Positions 4,072 to 15,776 of a DNA stretch of 64,000 bases are shown here, one piece after another. The position numbers and the translations under genes were made by a program. Within the stretch, counting starts at the first letter, position 1. Every line of letters starts with the position of its first letter. The notes beneath the pieces were generated by a model. It saw only the letters and a list, made by a program, of their open reading frames with translations, was not told where the DNA came from and did not search any database. Source of the stretch: Bacteroidota bacterium (GTDB taxonomy: Bacteria; Bacteroidota; Bacteroidia; Chitinophagales; Chitinophagaceae); contig JAFDYC010000028.1 in assembly GCA_018267625.1 (NCBI GenBank), positions 62,001 through 126,000 of the forward strand. The letters run 5' to 3'.

Positions 4072-4074
4072 TAG

Positions 4075-4255
4075 AAAAGCCGATGCAGAATGCCTTCATA
4101 GAACGTCAGAACGGATCCATGAGAAGGGAACTGAAAGCCTACCAGTTTGACTCGCTGAAGGAAGAAGGGCTATGTGCAGTGAGTGGCAGATGGATTACAA
4201 CCAGTAGCGTCTGCATAAAGCACTCTGTAACCTCTCACCAGTAGCCTATCCTTAG
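4075..4255 (+). pseudogene. IS3-family transposase (OrfB) C-terminal remnant
   Basis: Translation from 4077 gives KPMQNAFIERQNGSMRREL, the conserved run around the third catalytic residue of IS3-type OrfB integrase domains. The frame breaks near 4160. The continuation lies in another frame from 4172 (MCSEWQMDYNQ), has an in-frame TAG at 4205, then RLHKALCNLSPVAYP and a stop at 4253. This corresponds to the family's usual ending (xxWxxDYNxxRPHxALxxLSPxxY). Upstream parts of the transposase are absent. It is a dead fragment marking the left edge of the AT-rich island. It belongs to a different subgroup from the remnant at 44926-45283. Confidence 0.8.
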
Positions 4256-4510
4256 CGCCAGCTAATAAATGAATCCAAAGCTGATGAAAACCCAGAAGCC
4301 GTATCCACAAATCCACCTAGGCCGACTCAGCCGGAGCGAGCCGGACGAATAACGCGGAATTGTTGATAAGATTTTTGAAAACCCAATGTCCGAAAACAAG
4401 CAAAACTCTACATTTAATCGGCTCCGTTTTTAGGGAAGCTTACTCAAATCACGCATTATTTTTTATCATTGTGTTAACATTATTTTTTTTTTTGCCAAAA
4501 ACTAACTTAG
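4256..4510. other. Intergenic DNA left of AT-rich island
   Basis: No credible gene is seen. Base composition changes abruptly around 4360-4440 from mixed to AT-rich, ending in a T-tract at about 4481-4493 just before the first cassette gene. The open frame 4360-4563 has no recognisable product and overlaps the signal-peptide gene at 4511, so I do not call it. The T-tract followed by TTTG may act as a degenerate Bacteroidota promoter for the gene at 4511, but no clean TAnnTTTG is present. Confidence 0.5.
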
Positions 4511-4885
4511 ATGAAAAACGTATTTTTTCTTGGTGTCACGATCCTTGTCTTAACTGTTTCTGATCAACTGTCCGCAACCTGCTACAATACTCGAAAAGAT
4601 GCACAAAGAAACGGGTATGATAAAGTGTCTCAGTCTGATTATAATACAGTAGGTGGAACTACTTCATATTTATTTTGCAAAGAACCTGGTACGAAAGCTT
4701 GCAAATACAGTGATGGTCATATTCCGCCAATGGTTGGAGGAATCCCCTTAGACGATTACGTAAACCAGCAAATTCTATCTGGTGAATTAGTTGGGAATGT
4801 AGTTTTGGACGATGGAAATGGTAACGAACTACATTGGGAAGTTTCTAGTGACGGTTCAATCAATTATAGCTACTGCATGCAATAA
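4511..4885 (+). CDS. Small secreted Cys-containing protein, cassette copy A
   Basis: A 124-residue protein with a Lys-containing N-terminus and hydrophobic Sec-type signal peptide (about residues 1-22), then a mature part of about 100 residues with four Cys. I do not recognise the family. It is clearly paralogous to the protein at 6815-7186: both have C-x2-PG-x3-CK, then P-x-VGG, DY-[VI]-NQQ, and a late Trp before a final Cys. Even Cys content and a signal peptide suggest a disulfide-stabilised periplasmic or exported protein. It is followed by a propeller-like secreted protein and a thioredoxin-like protein. AT-rich codon use unlike the flanks suggests transfer. Function unknown. Confidence 0.75.
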   Translation: MKNVFFLGVTILVLTVSDQLSATCYNTRKDAQRNGYDKVSQSDYNTVGGTTSYLFCKEPGTKACKYSDGHIPPMVGGIPLDDYVNQQILSGELVGNVVLDDGNGNELHWEVSSDGSINYSYCMQ

Positions 4886-4909
4886 CCATATTTTGTATAA
4901 TTTAGCAAG

Positions 4910-4938
4910 TTGTTGCAAGTATGGCCCCCATATTTTTG
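4910..4938 (+). promoter_or_regulatory. Bacteroidota-type promoter of propeller gene A
   Basis: A TTG at 4910-4912 (-33 element) is separated by 18 bp from TATTTTTG at 4931-4938, a perfect TAnnTTTG -7 box. The box ends 2 bp before the ATG at 4941, so the transcript would have essentially no leader. Confidence 0.55.
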
Positions 4939-4940
4939 CC

Positions 4941-6203
4941 ATGAGAACACTATGTATATCAATTTATATTTGTTTATTAATTACGTTTGTGACTTTCAAT
5001 GCAGAAGCACAGTATATTTTGAAAAATGTCGTGTTTACATCTGACCAATCAATACCCAATACCGATTTCCCTTTTTTTAAATTTGCCTATCGATATCAAG
5101 ATGGTATTTTTCGAGTCTATGAGATAATTAACACTAACAAAAAATCTTCTATTCAAATCACCGAATTGGATGAAAAATATGTCCCTACAAGGCGTGACAC
5201 CATCTCAGACTACTTCCAAGGAGGATCAGAAATTGATGACGTCTTGCCTTTAAAAAACTATGATGTGCTTGTAGGGTATAAGAAAATATCTATTTATAAT
5301 AGGATATCAAGAACTCAAGTTGACACAAAGTATGTACTAGGAATAAAAAAAATTTTTGATGAAGTTAGTAAAATAAATGACACTTTATTGCTTTTGGCAG
5401 GTGTTGATGATTTACACCCATTAGATGGTCCCTGTGGATTGAATTTATTGATCTTCAATATTAAGTCTAATGAGATAGAAAAGGAACGGCTAGTTAAGGT
5501 ACCTGGAGTGGCAATGGCTGACATGTCTGTTAAGTTAATTTCTAGCAACAACAATGAAATTTATTATTTTTCACCTCTTTCAACAAACCTATATACATTC
5601 GATATCAACATTAATTTAAAAAGCATTAATCACATTGATTTTGAAATGGATTATAATAAAAACAATCAATTTGAAAAAAATACAGATTCCTTAATGTATG
5701 GTGAATGGATGCGACTCTATAAAATTTATGCGGGCATCCCAATAGTAACTGATAGTTTAATAGACAACTTACAGAGTGTATTCTTTACAAAAGATTATTT
5801 AGTTAAAATGATAAGTACGATAAACAATGAATTTGATCACATTGACAAGATAATCCCTCTTGCAGATAATTTGATATGTATTGGAGTAGCTCGAAAAGGA
5901 GTGAAAATATATAGAGACGTTTACTTTGTTAATTTGAAATCAGGCTTTGTTATTAAGAAGTATCGTAATTGGCTTAACTCACCAGCTCAGTCATATAATC
6001 GAATTGAAGATTGCTTACCTTTAAGTTTCGCGACTCCTAAATATCAGAGGATGTGTTTCAATAAAGATGAAGTTTTTGAATCAAACTTGTTTAACCCAAT
6101 AGAATTTAACGGTGATAATAAGGATTCTGTTGACCTCGCTTTTCAAAATAGAGTACTTAAAAACGGATACAAGTGGAATATAATAAAATATCAATTAAAG
6201 TAA
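4941..6203 (+). CDS. Secreted propeller-like protein, cassette copy A
   Basis: A 420-residue protein with a signal peptide ending around NAEAQ (residues 21-25). The mature part is rich in short beta-strand-like stretches, with aromatic/Asp-Gly turns and no obvious catalytic motif. The layout (for example YYFSPLSTNLYTFD) resembles 6-bladed beta-propeller secreted proteins of Bacteroidota; that is inference from pattern. It is paralogous to 7243-8490 over its whole length: both share HPLDG, VPGVA/MPGIA, a [KR]NWLN motif and the C-terminal LKNGY[KR]W. The reading frame is open back to 4812 inside the preceding gene, but the ATG at 4941 begins the signal peptide. The 3' end overlaps the next gene by 31 bp. 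AT-rich. Confidence 0.75.
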   Translation: MRTLCISIYICLLITFVTFNAEAQYILKNVVFTSDQSIPNTDFPFFKFAYRYQDGIFRVYEIINTNKKSSIQITELDEKYVPTRRDTISDYFQGGSEIDDVLPLKNYDVLVGYKKISIYNRISRTQVDTKYVLGIKKIFDEVSKINDTLLLLAGVDDLHPLDGPCGLNLLIFNIKSNEIEKERLVKVPGVAMADMSVKLISSNNNEIYYFSPLSTNLYTFDININLKSINHIDFEMDYNKNNQFEKNTDSLMYGEWMRLYKIYAGIPIVTDSLIDNLQSVFFTKDYLVKMISTINNEFDHIDKIIPLADNLICIGVARKGVKIYRDVYFVNLKSGFVIKKYRNWLNSPAQSYNRIEDCLPLSFATPKYQRMCFNKDEVFESNLFNPIEFNGDNKDSVDLAFQNRVLKNGYKWNIIKYQLK

Positions 6204-6673
6204 CAACTTTTGTAATTACGGCCTTAATCGGTTGTTCTTTCATCAAAGCCTTAGCCCAAGCTAATCTGAAACCTACAACGTTTACTGATCAATTAAAGGA
6301 TATATATTTGGAGCCATTTAAATTCAGTATTGACAGTAGTTATGCCTTCATAATTTTCAATAAAAAAAGTTGTCTGCATTGTGGGAAAGACTTATGCAGG
6401 ATCTTTGAAACAACATCTGATCTTAAAAATTATAATGTTTTCTCTGTTTTTTGTGATGAATATAATATAAGCGGGATGCTTCCCAATAGAGCACGAATAT
6501 TAGCTGAAGTTCCTTGTTCTAAGACGGTTTTATTTAGATTTAAAACTAATTTAGATACTAATTCCATCATTTTCACTGAGCCATCTCCTCAACTAGTTTT
6601 AATGCATAACGGATTGATTAAGTTTTTATCTTATGGTGAAACGCTTCATTTTATAAGTACGAAAACGAAATGA
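6173..6673 (+). CDS. Thioredoxin-like secreted protein with CLHC motif
   Basis: A 166-residue protein starting at a GTG inside the end of the propeller gene. The N-terminus is hydrophobic with a possible lipobox (LIGC, Cys about residue 21) or a Sec site near ALAQA. After about 30 residues comes FIIFNKKSCLHCGKDLC, where CLHC fits a thioredoxin-fold CxxC site at the end of a beta-strand. Later SPQLVLMHNG resembles the cis-Pro strand of that fold. The proposed role is periplasmic disulfide chemistry, which would suit the Cys-rich partner at 4511. It is present only in copy A. Family membership is a motif-based inference. Confidence 0.6.
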   Translation: MEYNKISIKVTTFVITALIGCSFIKALAQANLKPTTFTDQLKDIYLEPFKFSIDSSYAFIIFNKKSCLHCGKDLCRIFETTSDLKNYNVFSVFCDEYNISGMLPNRARILAEVPCSKTVLFRFKTNLDTNSIIFTEPSPQLVLMHNGLIKFLSYGETLHFISTKTK

Positions 6674-6760
6674 TAATCTGTTTTATGTTTTAATATTCTA
6701 AATGAATCTCTGCGATACTATTACTTTATTATTATATATTAATATTTATCTACCTCATTA

Positions 6761-6768
6761 TAAATTTG
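6761..6768 (+). promoter_or_regulatory. Candidate -7 box for cassette copy B
   Basis: TAAATTTG matches TAnnTTTG and lies 46 bp upstream of the ATG at 6815. The 141-bp spacer after the thioredoxin-like gene is very AT-rich and otherwise empty, so copy B probably starts its own transcript here. Confidence 0.4.
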
Positions 6769-6814
6769 CCATAGTTACAGTTTAATTTGTAAATAATTAC
6801 TTAACAACACAAAT

Positions 6815-7186
6815 ATGAAAACAACAATTTTTTTCTTGCTATGTGTGCTATTGTCAACTACTTCCTTTGCTCGTAAAATTATCGTTATTGATGAGTGTTC
6901 CGGATCGCCTCATCCAGATGGGAGTATGACTTACCAATACTGTGATGGTGGAAGACATGATGCAGTCCTTGATCAACATTTTTTAAACTGTTGGAATCCT
7001 GGTTCTAACGGTTGCAAGTGGAAAGTGCAACCGAAGGTTGGAGGGACGGATCAAATTACTGATTATATTAACCAACAGGTTGCTTTAGGCATTTCTGAAG
7101 GCTCTTTTAACACAGAAGATGGATACCATGTAACTTGGTCCATAGATGATTCGGGTTGTAGGCATACTCGTATTGAGGAAATGTAA
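6815..7186 (+). CDS. Small secreted Cys-containing protein, cassette copy B
   Basis: A 123-residue paralogue of the 4511 protein. Residues 1-19 form a Sec signal peptide ending near TSFA-R. The mature part has five Cys (DEC, QYC, NCWNPG, GCKW, SGC). The core C-x2-PG-x3-CKW, PKVGG, DYINQQ, late W and late Cys align with copy A. The region before the core is divergent, so the shared domain is the C-terminal two thirds. The stop codon overlaps an ATG at 7186, but the next gene more likely starts at 7243. Function unknown; the association with the propeller protein is conserved in both copies. Confidence 0.75.
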   Translation: MKTTIFFLLCVLLSTTSFARKIIVIDECSGSPHPDGSMTYQYCDGGRHDAVLDQHFLNCWNPGSNGCKWKVQPKVGGTDQITDYINQQVALGISEGSFNTEDGYHVTWSIDDSGCRHTRIEEM

Positions 7187-7209
7187 TGCCATTTTACACA
7201 CTTAAATTA

Positions 7210-7239
7210 TTTGCAATTCGCATCTCATCATTATATTTT
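7210..7239 (+). promoter_or_regulatory. Candidate promoter of propeller gene B
   Basis: TTTG at 7210-7213, an 18-bp spacer, and TATATTTT at 7232-7239 (one base off TAnnTTTG), ending 3 bp before the ATG at 7243. Position and spacing copy those upstream of propeller gene A, so the promoter appears to have been duplicated with the cassette. Confidence 0.4.
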
Positions 7240-7242
7240 AAA

Positions 7243-8490
7243 ATGAAAATATTAATTTCATTATTATTAATATTTTTCCATTTTGTTAGCTTCTCACAGT
7301 ATCAGTATTTACGCACTGTTTATATTGACACCGGCGATTCAATTCCCTCAACAAGATATCCTCTTGATTTTGTTGCATTTAAATACAAAAACTCATATTT
7401 GCGTTATTATAAGGCAAATACAATGAAAAGTTCATTATTTATTTATGATTTTGATCCTAATAGTTTTGTTGTTAGGAAGATTGATACTTGCCCTAATACC
7501 TTTGCTCGTTTTCCTGTAGATGTTCTCCCTATGAAGAACTATGATGTCTTTATAGAGCCTGACAAAATATACATTTATGACCGAATAATTGGTAAGCAAA
7601 CGTCCTATAGATATGCATATGGAGCATCAAAAAATTTTCTTTGTGTTAATGCGTTCAATGACTCTATTTTGCTTCTATCAACTTTTACAAATTTCCATCC
7701 CTTAGATGGGGAGCCGGGCCTTCATCTATATACATATAATATTAATACTAGGAATATAATTAGATCGCGTATTATTAGAATGCCCGGTATAGCATTAGCG
7801 AACAGTGATGGCGCTTATGTTTCTGATGTTGGTGGTAAGTGTTATTTTATTGACCCGCTAACTACTGATTTATACGGTATTGACACAGAACTCAATGTTA
7901 CTTGGATAGGAACAGTTGATAAGAGTATAGACAAGAAAAAAAACATAATTTACGAGCGAAAGTCGGATAAATTAATTTATGATGACTGGGATCGAATGTA
8001 TGCAGATTTCATATCTAACTTTGGAAGTGATCTTGATAGTTTAAAAAATGCAATTCACTCAAATATATATACAAAAGATTTCTATGTTAATACGATAAAC
8101 AATCTTAAAATACATTTTGATTACGTGGAAAAGATGTATCCATTTAATGATTCTTGTCTGGTAGTTGGGATATCGAGAGCAAATTCTGGATATAAAGTCA
8201 GAGATGTCTTTATGTACAATGTATTTACAAAAAAAATTGAACTCCATTATAAGAATTGGTTGAACGATCGAAAAAAAATCTGTAATAAATTTCAGGATTA
8301 TTTCCCTGCAAGTTTTAGCAATCGGAATACCCATAGTTTGTGTTTCAAATCAGACACTATTTTGATGGGTACTTTTTATGATACAAGCCTTTTCCGTCCG
8401 TCTTCTAAAGATTCATTGGACTTAGAAATACATAAGCAAATTCTTAAAAATGGGTATCGATGGTCTTTACAAGAATATAAGCTTGAATAA
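7243..8490 (+). CDS. Secreted propeller-like protein, cassette copy B
   Basis: A 415-residue protein, full-length paralogue of 4941-6203, with a signal peptide (MKILISLLLIFFHFVSFSQ). Shared landmarks in order: a DSIPxT[RD][YF]P segment near the mature N-terminus, [LP]MKNYDV, HPLDG, PGIALA, DPLTTDLY, KNWLN and LKNGYRW near the end. Repeated strand-turn patterns suggest a beta-propeller; no catalytic motif is seen. The frame is open from 7186 (TAATG overlap with the preceding stop), which would add 19 residues before the signal peptide. No thioredoxin-like gene follows this copy. AT-rich throughout. Confidence 0.75.
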   Translation: MKILISLLLIFFHFVSFSQYQYLRTVYIDTGDSIPSTRYPLDFVAFKYKNSYLRYYKANTMKSSLFIYDFDPNSFVVRKIDTCPNTFARFPVDVLPMKNYDVFIEPDKIYIYDRIIGKQTSYRYAYGASKNFLCVNAFNDSILLLSTFTNFHPLDGEPGLHLYTYNINTRNIIRSRIIRMPGIALANSDGAYVSDVGGKCYFIDPLTTDLYGIDTELNVTWIGTVDKSIDKKKNIIYERKSDKLIYDDWDRMYADFISNFGSDLDSLKNAIHSNIYTKDFYVNTINNLKIHFDYVEKMYPFNDSCLVVGISRANSGYKVRDVFMYNVFTKKIELHYKNWLNDRKKICNKFQDYFPASFSNRNTHSLCFKSDTILMGTFYDTSLFRPSSKDSLDLEIHKQILKNGYRWSLQEYKLE

Positions 8491-8874
8491 TGATCTGGTA
8501 TATTATTTGAGTCTTTTCTTTATTATTAATAACGCCATAAACACTTTATACTACCTCTCGGAAACGATTATTCTGAAGGATCTTATTGCTTCTTTATAAA
8601 TATTAATCTTGCTTTTTTTGATGTATCTCACAGGCATCCTGGTGTCCTTACTGAATCATTGCTGTAGCTATCCCTTGACCATAAGACTTTGTTCGTTGCA
8701 ACTGATGCCAGTTTGTTCAGGGCAAAGCCGGCGGTGAATTCCTGCTGAATGCTGCTATCCTGAAAAGAAGTTTAGTATAGACTGCAACTAATGTCAAGGA
8801 TTAAGGCGTAGCCGAAAAAAAATATCGCTCTATGTGCCATCTCAAACGGGATAATTCCTAACGAACAGTATGGG
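8491..8874. other. Intergenic right edge of AT-rich island
   Basis: No gene is supported. The first 150 bp are AT-rich like the cassettes. From about 8640 the composition returns to that of the core. All frames are interrupted, and I could not match the stretch to a transposase. It lies between the plus-strand cassette and the 3' end of a minus-strand operon, so it is the convergent junction of the island. Confidence 0.4.
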
Positions 8875-9303
8875 TTACCGCCTGCGTTTATTCCTGAGTT
8901 GCTGCAGCAGCAGTTTCTTAAAGTCGCGTTCTGCTTCGTAAAGCGTCACCAGTTGCTGCGGAGAAATCACTTTCAGAAACTGGCCTTTGTATTTACGTTT
9001 TATGGCTAGCACATCTTCCTGCAGTTCCATCCGGTCATCTATCAACTGGTTGGCTTCTTCGTCATTGGTGATGGCCTGCCTGTTTTGTGTTCGGAATGCA
9101 CGTCGGGTGCTCCTCAGCTCTGCCTCGTAGTTATCATACACCGGCCAGAATGCTGCTGCCTGTTGTGAGGTCAGTTGCAGCCTGTCAGTGAGGTAGCCAA
9201 CTTTAATCGCGTGAATTCTTTCTGCACCCCGACCCTGGGCCTGAGCCTGCGGGGTTGATGAGGCTAACATCAACAGGATAAATCCAACAATTCTCTTTGC
9301 CAT
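8875..9303 (-). CDS. Spy/CpxP-like small periplasmic protein
   Basis: A 142-residue protein with a signal peptide ending at AQAQG. The mature part is highly charged and helical, with the pattern LTDRLQLTSQQAAAFWPVY typical of the Bacteroidota relatives of Spy/CpxP-type periplasmic proteins (LTxxQ-like helices). It is the third gene of an apparent operon with an ECF sigma factor and a membrane anti-sigma candidate, 12 bp after the latter. A role in envelope stress sensing or buffering is likely from context. The C-terminus is very basic (RNKRRR). Function is inferred. Confidence 0.7.
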   Translation of the reverse strand: MAKRIVGFILLMLASSTPQAQAQGRGAERIHAIKVGYLTDRLQLTSQQAAAFWPVYDNYEAELRSTRRAFRTQNRQAITNDEEANQLIDDRMELQEDVLAIKRKYKGQFLKVISPQQLVTLYEAERDFKKLLLQQLRNKRRR

Positions 9304-12579: not shown

Positions 12580-12606
12580 TGAAAGACTCCTTAAATAGCA
12601 AATAAC

Positions 12607-13284
12607 ATGAAACAAATTTTAATTTCCGGACTTGCCTGTGTACTGATTTCTTTAAATTCTGGAGCACAATGCAAACTTGATTAAAGTAATTATTATTTGG
12701 TTTTTGAAGAAAATTTTGATTCTATTATTTCTCATTCCCAACTTTCGAATCGGTGGATGTTTTTACCCGGATGATCCAGGATGGGGGTGGGGGGATTCTT
12801 ATGATAGCACTAATCATACATGGGTTGATGGAGAATTTTATGACGAGTCACAAGTGTCTGTTATTCCAGGAGGCATTTTAAGGTTAACTGCTATTAGATT
12901 AGATCAGCTTGCACAAATCCAAAGTTCATGGTATCATGCGGAATTCCTTAAAGGAAATAGAAATACCCCTGATCGCTGGTGTAGGTATAAGTCCGGTATG
13001 ATTCAATTACGAAGAGATGTTTCAGGGGCTCCATTTGAAGGGTGTAACGATTTTAAGGGTTTTACTTATGGGATGTTTGAAGTAAGGATGAAGATACCTA
13101 AGGGTGTTACATATCCTGCTTTTTGGTAAATCGGCCCTAAGATGTTACAGGGAAATTAATACTAGGCCTTAATCCTAAAAATTATACATCAGAAATTGAT
13201 TTTAGAAGTATTATTCCTGGCATTTATATAGTAAAAATACAAACTGGCCAATATGTCGAGTACAGCAAAGTAATAAAGTATTAA
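12607..13284 (+). pseudogene. Decayed GH16-like secreted protein with T9SS sorting domain
   Basis: Broken pieces of one gene lie in order. A start at 12607 gives a signal peptide (ISGLACVLISLNSGAQ) that stops at TAA 12682. The same frame continues with YLVFEENFDS and NRW. It shifts frame near 12760 into PDDPGWGWGDSYDS, GGILRLTAIR, YKSGMIQL, YGMFEVRMKIPKG and PAFW, as in the concanavalin-like GH16 fold, then TAA at 13127. From 13141, in another frame, comes a Por-type C-terminal sorting domain (DVTGK, IIPGIYIVKIQTG, YSKVIKY) ending at 13284. A large internal segment, including any catalytic ExDxxE motif, is missing. At least one premature stop, two frameshifts and a deletion make this dead. 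Confidence 0.8.
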
Positions 13285-13342
13285 TTATAAATTATAAAGA
13301 AATAATACCATTATATATATTATAATTGATAAATAATTTATC

Positions 13343-14851
13343 GTGAAATTTACATTCAAGTTAAGATATTTTTACAAAAATAATATTGCTATATTGTTTA
13401 TTGTTATACTGTCTTTTTTTTTAAGAATCGGAGCAATATTAATTGACCCTTTTCTTCACCCGTGGGATGAAAGATTTCATGCTTTAGTAGCAAGAAATTT
13501 GATGACAAGCCCCTTTACTCCTATCCTTAGAGTTAACCCAATTACAGAAAACTACGATAAGTTTATTTGGTGCTGTAACCATATTTGGCTCCATAAACAA
13601 CCACTATTTATGTGGCAAATGGCATTGAGCATGAAAGTTTTTGGAGTTTCTGAATGGAGTATGCGATTGCCGAGTGCAATTATGGGGACAATTTTGGTAC
13701 TCCTGATATATAGAATTGCCATTCTGATAAAAGTAAGTAAGCGAGTAGCACTACTCACTGCATTATTATTAGCATGTTCCAATTTTCATTTGCAAATGAT
13801 AGCAGGGATACAGGGAATGGATCATAATGATGTAGCTCATGGCTTTTATGTGTTAGCCAGTATTTGGGCATTATTTGAATTTGAAAAATCAAAAAAATGG
13901 TATTGGGTTATATTCATTGGTGTGTTTTCAGGTGCAGCTATTTTAAATAAATGGTTAACTGGATTATTGGTATATTTCATTTGGGGAATAGTTTTGTTAT
14001 GCCAATTAATAAATAAGGCCGAAGTCAAAAAACAAATTATTTTTTTATTATTATCATTAATTGTTTGTTGTATTGTTTTTCTACCGTGGCAATTATACAT
14101 ACTTTATCGCTTTCATGATTTGGCAATTTATGAATATGCATTCAATAGAAGGCATATTAGTGAAGCTTTAGAAGGGCACGAAGGTGGGTATCTCTATTAT
14201 ATAAACCATTTAAATTATATTATTGGAAAATTTCTTATATTTTTCATCCCCCTTGGTGTAATTTTAATTGTTAGAGATAAAACTATAAACCAAAAATTAA
14301 ATTATGGCATAATTGGTGCTATTGTATTCGTTTTATTATTTTTTAGTATAATTGTAAAAACAAAAGTTGATACATATATTTTCTTTATTGTACCATTGGC
14401 GTATTTGTATGTATCTTATGCAATTGAACAGCTAATATTATTATTTAAAAGCCTTATCTATAAAAAATATTTAATTATAATATGTTATTTTATATTTCCT
14501 ATAATTACATTGAATCCTGTTTGGTTTTATAATTATTTATCAATAAATAATATTGATAGACGTAATCGAATATACAATGCAAATATCTATAAGAATTTAA
14601 ACAAAGATATTCCTAATAAATTTCATGTCGTTATGAACATGAATTCATTTGAAGATATTGATGTTATGTTTTATAATAAAGGTATTACCGCATATCATTG
14701 GACACTTCCTGAATCAGATTTTAAATCTTTTGAACGTAAAAAAATTCCGATTGCAGTTTTTGAGTCACATGGTTCATACAAATTGCCGCAATATGTACTT
14801 AAATATCCATATATTTATATAATCAGAAAGGAGCTAAAAAGCTTTTATTAA
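13343..14851 (+). CDS. GT39/ArnT-type membrane glycosyltransferase
   Basis: A 502-residue polytopic protein with about ten or more hydrophobic segments, starting at GTG. The N-terminal part has DPFLHPWDERFHALVARNL, then KQPLFMWQMALSMKVFG and RLPSAIMGT, the signature of PMT-type (GT39/GT83) glycosyltransferases that move sugar from a polyprenyl-phosphate carrier to an acceptor outside the membrane. The acidic WDE in the first loop fits the catalytic site. The acceptor is unknown. It is strongly AT-rich compared with the adjoining xerD, suggesting acquisition. No polysaccharide cluster surrounds it. Confidence 0.8.
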   Translation: MKFTFKLRYFYKNNIAILFIVILSFFLRIGAILIDPFLHPWDERFHALVARNLMTSPFTPILRVNPITENYDKFIWCCNHIWLHKQPLFMWQMALSMKVFGVSEWSMRLPSAIMGTILVLLIYRIAILIKVSKRVALLTALLLACSNFHLQMIAGIQGMDHNDVAHGFYVLASIWALFEFEKSKKWYWVIFIGVFSGAAILNKWLTGLLVYFIWGIVLLCQLINKAEVKKQIIFLLLSLIVCCIVFLPWQLYILYRFHDLAIYEYAFNRRHISEALEGHEGGYLYYINHLNYIIGKFLIFFIPLGVILIVRDKTINQKLNYGIIGAIVFVLLFFSIIVKTKVDTYIFFIVPLAYLYVSYAIEQLILLFKSLIYKKYLIIICYFIFPIITLNPVWFYNYLSINNIDRRNRIYNANIYKNLNKDIPNKFHVVMNMNSFEDIDVMFYNKGITAYHWTLPESDFKSFERKKIPIAVFESHGSYKLPQYVLKYPYIYIIRKELKSFY

Positions 14852-14873
14852 ATAATATTTCTATTATAATTTC

Positions 14874-15776
14874 GTGTGTATATCAACTTACTTAGTTGGT
14901 TTTAAAGCCTATTTGCAGTTGGAGCGTTCCATGTCGGAGCATACTGTTGAAGCCTATTTGCATGATACTGTGCTCTTATTGACTTTCTGGCAAGCCAACC
15001 ATCCTGATCGCCCGATCCTCGAAATCAGCCTGCCCGATTTGAAAACCTTTGTAGCAGAGATTTATGACTTGGGACTGGCTCCGGCCACACAGGCTCGGAT
15101 TCTGAGCGGAATTAAATCCTTCTTCCGTTTTCTGCTGCTCGAAGGCGAAATCACCAGCGACCCAACAGAACTGTTGCAGGCACCCAAATTGCGCCGCAGC
15201 CTGCCTGAGGTACTCAGCATCGAAGAAATAGAAGCTATGATGACTGCTATAGACCACAGCCGCCCTGAAGGGCAACGAAACCGCGCTATGCTGGAGACCC
15301 TTTATTCCTGCGGCCTTCGCGCCAGCGAACTGATTTCTTTGCGTATCTCAAACTTGTATCTTGAAACCGGTTTCCTACGCGTCATCGGTAAGGGGAATAA
15401 AGAGCGGCTGGTACCAATTGGAAAGGAAGCAGCAAAACAAATTGACCTGTATCGCCTTCATGTTCGTCCACAAATTCCTGTTCAGGAAACGGCGCGGGAT
15501 ATTCTTTTTCTGAACCGACGGGGTAGGGGGCTGAGCAGGATGATGCTTTTCAACATCGTTCGTGATGCTGCACAAAAGGCTGGCATTCGGGTGCCCGTGC
15601 ATCCCCACACGTTCCGGCATTCATTCGCAACGCATCTGGTGGAGCGTGGGGCAGACCTTCGGGCGGTACAGGAAATGCTGGGCCACGCGAGCATCACCAC
15701 CACGGAAATCTATACTCACCTCGACCGGGGCTATCTGCGCAGCACCTTAGAAAAGTTTCATCCCCGCTACCAATAA
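14874..15776 (+). CDS. xerD: Tyrosine recombinase XerD/XerC
   Basis: A 300-residue site-specific recombinase, GTG start. The N-terminal SAM-like domain (about residues 5-95) is followed by a catalytic domain with all expected residues: Arg149 (GLRASEL), Lys173 ([10 protein letters not shown]), His245 and Arg248 ([16 protein letters not shown]), His271 ([15 protein letters not shown]) and nucleophile Tyr280. It resolves chromosome dimers at dif in most bacteria. Length and lack of phage context favour a housekeeping Xer over a mobile-element integrase, though it borders an AT-rich patch. XerC versus XerD cannot be separated with certainty. Confidence 0.9.

Follow-up and report, generated by a model that had tools for sequence, protein, structure and literature searches.

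The window analyzed here is a stretch of 64,000 nucleotides of contig JAFDYC010000028.1 from a member of the Chitinophagaceae (Bacteroidota). It contains a cassette of five genes, all on the forward strand, in the order small protein I, propeller-like protein I, CXXC protein, small protein II, and propeller-like protein II. The first gene encodes a small secreted Cys-containing protein of 124 residues (window positions 4511–4885), identified as an open reading frame (ORF), by pairwise alignment, and with a hidden Markov model (HMM). It is followed by the gene for a secreted β-propeller-like protein of 420 residues (4941–6203, in an ORF that can be extended to 4812) and by that for a secreted thioredoxin-like protein of 166 residues (6173–6673), which overlaps the propeller gene by 31 nt and has the CXXC motif CLHC (6371–6382). 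The second unit comprises a small secreted Cys-containing protein of 123 residues (6815–7186) and a secreted β-propeller-like protein of 415 residues (7243–8490, in an ORF that opens at 7186), with no CXXC gene downstream. N-terminal signal peptides were recognized by eye in the small and propeller-like proteins, and the CXXC protein likewise has one. The first-pass annotation of this DNA described two pairs of a small and a large secreted protein with conserved order and orientation, and the ORFs lie where it placed them. The pairing stands, but as a description of the complete cassette it fell short, because the CXXC gene had been missed.

Recurrence of the Three-gene Unit

Profile searches with the small protein covered 296 genomes of the family, 398 of the order, and 395 of the phylum, in overlapping samples, and gene neighborhoods were read after two independent searches, with the small protein alone and then with the propeller-like protein alone. 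Outside the window, 11 of the 13 genuine small-protein loci have one or more small-protein genes followed by a gene for a secreted protein of ~400 residues and one for a CXXC protein of 150–205 residues. Order and strand are identical in all 11 loci, one of which has a small extra gene inserted. The remaining two are the locus of G942, with the small and propeller-like genes only, and a second locus of G891, with a solitary small gene. This solitary gene (L036, contig C9, 7442–7879) has no propeller or CXXC neighbors, and the same genome carries a full cassette. A search started instead from the propeller profile gave four further full loci in three more genera (G743, G793, and two in G777); its other matches were a lone propeller gene (G696), a fragment (G713, contig C93), and a different kind of locus (G662). 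A CXXC protein completes all 15 full loci found outside the window. The three-gene unit is present in 14 genera and nine families besides the window's own, and its reach includes Candidatus Kapaibacterium. The small, propeller-like, and CXXC proteins are co-inherited in a fixed order as an exported three-gene unit. The proposal made earlier, that the small and large proteins belong together and that HMM and neighborhood searches should reveal recurrent adjacency, is borne out: the two genes are adjacent in unrelated genomes, from whichever side the search is started.

HMMs built with one genome left out at a time (Z = 1) recovered every member tested, which argues that the families are not chance resemblances. 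The small proteins of the window were recovered at 5.8e-17 and 3.7e-19 (5.8e-17 to 4.4e-28 for all small proteins tested), the propeller-like proteins at 1.5e-7 and 3.9e-12 (1.5e-7 to 3.3e-65), and the CXXC protein at 2.1e-7 (5.6e-6 to 1.7e-21). Relatives of the small protein (E ≤ 0.001) occur in just eight of the 395 genomes of the phylum sample besides the window, and the distribution is therefore patchy. Neighboring genes of the unit mostly abut or overlap. The gap between the propeller and CXXC genes is −4 in four loci and ranges from −77 to +52 across all loci measured; a 4-nt gene overlap is typical of translational coupling. When 185 flanking ORFs of 18 loci were compared, no fourth gene was widely common to the flanks. 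Literature searches returned nothing on this three-gene module.

Small-protein matches in G122 (L009) and G381 (L020) were rejected as false positives, which run antisense to unrelated genes or lie within them. In G777, a normal cassette is preceded by a set of genes with the same layout (L082, 1261–3335), comprising a small Cys peptide (CVGTGTC), a protein of 431 residues, and a CXXC protein, none of them clearly recognized by the family profiles.

The Small Secreted Protein

The two small proteins of the window are 32–33% identical across their alignable core, and alignment confirmed the motifs previously listed for them, C-x2-PG-x3-CK, P-x-VGG, DY[VI]NQQ, and a Trp. The mature protein has ~100 residues, among which the Trp is invariant in all 23 sequences, as is one Gly. 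A C-x3-G-x3-C pair is present in 22 of the 23, represented in the window by CKEPGTKAC (4676–4702) in small protein I and CWNPGSNGC (6989–7015) in small protein II. The exception is the second small protein of G773 (G773b), in which both Cys residues have been lost and the remainder is kept; this joint loss is what would be predicted for disulfide partners. The number of small genes per locus varies from one to three. In a phylogenetic tree the branches are long and the two window copies do not group together, yet a sister relationship was not rejected (approximately unbiased (AU) test, p = 0.10 and 0.44).

Structure predictions in this study were built on shallow alignments of 5–6 rows, drawn from the window proteins and the related loci. 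The AlphaFold2 model of the small protein is reliable in its C-terminal half only, which consists of a helix followed by three strands, and a fold search of the PDB with this model gave no match at E ≤ 0.001. Membership in DUF6520 was considered on account of weak matches in three members (E = 0.0048) and discarded, as these were not reproduced in two members that were rescanned.

The Propeller-like and CXXC Proteins

The propeller-like proteins of the window are 34% identical over their full length, and the previously noted HPLDG, NWLN, and LKNGY[KR]W motifs are present in both. They are sister copies in the family tree (support 100/100) and therefore reflect a local duplication of the propeller gene. 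The tandem duplication of an entire pair that was originally proposed is accordingly secure for the propeller only. No member of the family has a confident Pfam or NCBIfam match. The predicted structure has low confidence (predicted local distance difference test (pLDDT) 53, predicted template modeling score (pTM) 0.36), with strands that repeat in a blade-like pattern. With this model Foldseek returned 126 matches at E ≤ 0.001, with template modeling (TM) scores of only ~0.2–0.3; the leading matches are β-propellers and include Hsv2, KLHDC2, BtuG, BT2095, and XusB. From the strand pattern and these matches, which agree with the earlier suggestion of a propeller-like protein, the protein of ~400 residues is most likely a β-propeller. 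Several family members look like lipoproteins.

All 16 members of the third family have the CXXC motif, with Cys67 and Cys70 invariant, and 14 of the 16 have a Pro at the position expected for the cis-Pro, as judged by eye from the sequences. Single members have weak Pfam matches to Thioredoxin_2, AhpC-TSA, and Thioredoxin (best E = 0.0024); the window protein has no Pfam thioredoxin match, and no member of the family scores above the cut-off. The list of PDB profile matches is headed by DsbG and thioredoxin-like chains, the best being DsbG-like (E = 0.0081). Taken together, these features indicate that the CXXC protein is likely to have a thioredoxin fold.

Genomic Setting of the Cassette

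The cassette lies in an AT-rich island (4072–8874) with a GC content of ~0.31 at 5–8 kb as compared with ~0.50 in the surroundings. The island starts after the frameshifted end of a transposase, the decayed C terminus of an IS3-type enzyme (OrfB), which was identified by eye from translations of the forward strand at 4086–4253. The translation from 4086 reads NAFIERQNGSMRRELKAYQFDSL and that of the frame at 4085 reads EWQMDYN..RLHKALCNLSPVAY. The AT-rich composition and the bordering IS3 remnant were both described correctly at the outset. The island is missing at the corresponding site of a genus mate (G113, L056), where the flanking genes are ~40 bp apart: a gene for a protein with a metallo-β-lactamase fold ends at 1215, and the ortholog of window 8875–9303 begins at 1257. 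In a second genus mate, G184, transposase-like ORFs, recognized by eye, adjoin the same upstream gene, and the insertion site may for this reason be a hot spot.

Comparison with Known Systems

In Bacteroidales, NVEALA (PF14055) and TolB_like (PF15869) proteins form pairs in which a small secreted Cys-containing product is likewise encoded upstream of a propeller-like protein of ~350–390 residues, on the same strand and in tandem repeats, as in the window. The small secreted protein of the present cassette is also encoded directly upstream of the secreted propeller. In the comparator genome G819, six NVEALA genes each lie 5′ of a gene for a propeller-like protein, and TolB_like was found in the two that were checked. 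At one of the loci of this genome (L086, 14201–17224), an NVEALA gene and a TolB_like propeller gene precede two others, one of them signal peptidase I-like and possibly for a dedicated processing peptidase, the other for a CXXC protein. The present small protein differs in having no NVEALA leader, a larger domain (~100 residues in the mature protein), and an invariant Trp, and its cassette regularly includes a CXXC gene. PF14055 had no match in the small proteins or elsewhere in the window genome, and no NVEALA string occurs in the sequences. A profile match to NVEALA (E = 3.2e-5) proved to be an artefact of the signal peptide; comparison with the mature small protein gave E values of 0.17–0.27, equal to those of shuffled controls. 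The distinction from NVEALA drawn in the first reading therefore holds. Similarly, the propeller has no PF15869 match above the cut-off, and alignment with NVEALA-associated propellers by hhalign gave a probability of 6.8%, so that homology to TolB_like was not established. Literature searches yielded neither a paper on NVEALA nor a description of what NVEALA/TolB_like loci do.

The locus in G662 (L084, 50–4548) encodes, in sequence, a propeller, a CXXC protein, MauE, a Cys-rich peptide of 96 residues, a second CXXC protein, and a DUF5128 (PF17170) propeller. The kinds of parts are the same as in the present cassette, a Cys-rich small product, a propeller, and a thiol protein, but the propeller family and the peptide are different, and there are an additional membrane protein, MauE, and two CXXC genes. 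That this cassette has such parts suggests that sets of a peptide, a propeller, and a thiol protein follow a general pattern. In the mau cluster (mauA, mauB, mauD, and mauE), genes for a small disulfide-bonded subunit, a propeller subunit, and a thioredoxin-like protein also occur together. MauE has been speculated to aid in the formation of the disulfides of the β-subunit (PMC7794033). The cassette resembles the methylamine dehydrogenase set in its kinds of parts but has no sequence match to it and no cofactor genes. BtuG and XusB of Bacteroides are exported surface propellers that bind ligands and are structural neighbors of the propeller model in Foldseek, but a conserved transporter partner and sequence similarity to them were not found in the present cassette.

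Possible Function of the Cassette

We favor, with a probability of about one half, a folding-and-holding model: the operon would produce a small protein that acts outside the cell, fold it, and hold it. All three proteins would be exported by means of their signal peptides; after export, the CXXC protein, with its putative thioredoxin fold, would make or proofread the disulfide that closes the small protein's C-x3-G-x3-C loop. Once folded, the small protein would be bound by the propeller, either on the outer surface or in the periplasm; the propeller would be its carrier, its receptor, or a docking subunit. The variable and active end of the system would be the small protein, of which two or three divergent copies sometimes depend on a single propeller and a single catalyst; unit II of the window would use its own propeller and share the one CXXC gene with unit I. 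We infer that the CXXC protein acts on the two Cys residues of the small protein because no other thiol feature of the partners is strongly conserved, and that the propeller binds the small protein because the propeller is a general binding fold. Patchy occurrence on an island and rapid divergence hint at contact of the small protein with other cells, and the resemblance of some propellers to surface lipoproteins hints at ligand handling.

The model draws on the conserved gene order, the closely packed genes, the homology within all three families, the Cys pair and its joint loss, the thioredoxin and propeller traits, the lack of a widely common fourth gene, and a correlation of evolutionary distances. 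Several observations weigh against it. The structural model of the propeller is poor, as its confidence and TM scores indicate, and the thioredoxin assignment is built on matches that are individually weak. A CXXC gene is missing from unit II of the window and from the locus in G942, the Cys pair is missing from one small protein, and one small gene of G891 is solitary. The correlation of pairwise distances among the three families (small–propeller, r = 0.31, p = 0.014; propeller–CXXC, r = 0.47, p = 0.002; small–CXXC, r = 0.42, p = 0.002), although counted in favor of the model, may stem from shared vertical inheritance.

An alternative, which we consider unlikely although not far-fetched, is an antagonism module in which the small disulfide protein would be a secreted antibacterial toxin, which the propeller would hold or provide immunity to and the CXXC protein would fold. 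The patchy presence of the unit, the absence of the island from a genus mate, its position beside a decayed transposase, and the fast divergence and multiple copies of the small proteins are in keeping with this. However, no toxin family was matched, plasmid or phage carriage was not found with the two queries tried, and one propeller at times serves several small proteins, unlike the strict pairing of toxin and immunity protein. A role in defence or competition had been put forward at first, but PADLOC, whose library is of anti-phage and not antibacterial systems, gave no match for the window proteins, only one weak match in a relative (E = 0.023), and no confident match.

It is somewhat more doubtful that the cassette captures a ligand or metal. 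In that case the propeller would work like the BtuG/XusB surface lipoproteins or the metallochaperone AztD, the small protein would be a co-receptor, and Cys residues that bind the ligand or metal would be kept reduced by the CXXC protein. BtuG, BT2095, and XusB are among the structural neighbors of the propeller, several propellers are lipoprotein-like, and AztD is a marginal sequence match in the PDB (E = 0.39–0.78), but no transporter gene is conserved beside the cassette, there is no conserved metal-ligand motif except the Cys pair, and C-x3-G-x3-C with its PG turns looks like a loop closed by a disulfide. A redox enzyme similar to methylamine dehydrogenase is improbable; here the propeller would be the large subunit, accompanied by a small disulfide-bonded subunit, which might carry a cofactor derived from Trp, and by a MauD-like disulfide protein. 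This would account for a composition that matches mauB/mauA/mauD and for the invariant Trp, and the similarly composed locus in G662 also encodes a true MauE; however, neither dehydrogenase subunit was matched in Pfam, no cofactor gene is conserved nearby, and there is a single conserved Trp where tryptophan tryptophylquinone needs two. That the genes encode unrelated secreted proteins placed side by side by local duplication, as the sister propellers of the window might imply, is scarcely credible, since the trio, its order, and its strand are repeated in 14 other genera and nine families and were recovered blind from two starting proteins.

Three families with no confident match in Pfam, NCBIfam, or PADLOC are thus united in one conserved operon as one testable system, with the thiol enzyme as a biochemical handle on the nature of the small protein. 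The module is a further version of the peptide–propeller gene sets; it resembles the NVEALA/TolB_like loci in arrangement, but homology with them was not found. More tentatively, it may represent a widespread and unrecognized system of Bacteroidota whose propeller and dedicated thioredoxin-like catalyst constitute an interchangeable chassis, by which fast-changing small disulfide proteins are secreted and presented; the NVEALA and DUF5128/MauE sets would then be parallel versions made from other peptide and propeller families. The parallel with NVEALA/TolB_like also provides a route into the peptide–propeller gene pairs of gut Bacteroidales.

Additional Features of the Region

An element resembling the Bacteroidota −7 box, TAAATTTGC, lies on the forward strand 46 nt 5′ of unit II (6761–6769); it was identified by consensus match only, and such elements show no overall enrichment. 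Just 5′ of small gene I, a run of 11 T residues (4483–4493) adjoins a TTTG element, and this tract, if variable in length, could act as an expression switch. A second AT-rich island, at 12600–14900 with a GC content of ~0.29, contains a secreted-looking ORF with no Pfam match (12677–13129) and a gene for a PMT-type glycosyltransferase (13343–14851).

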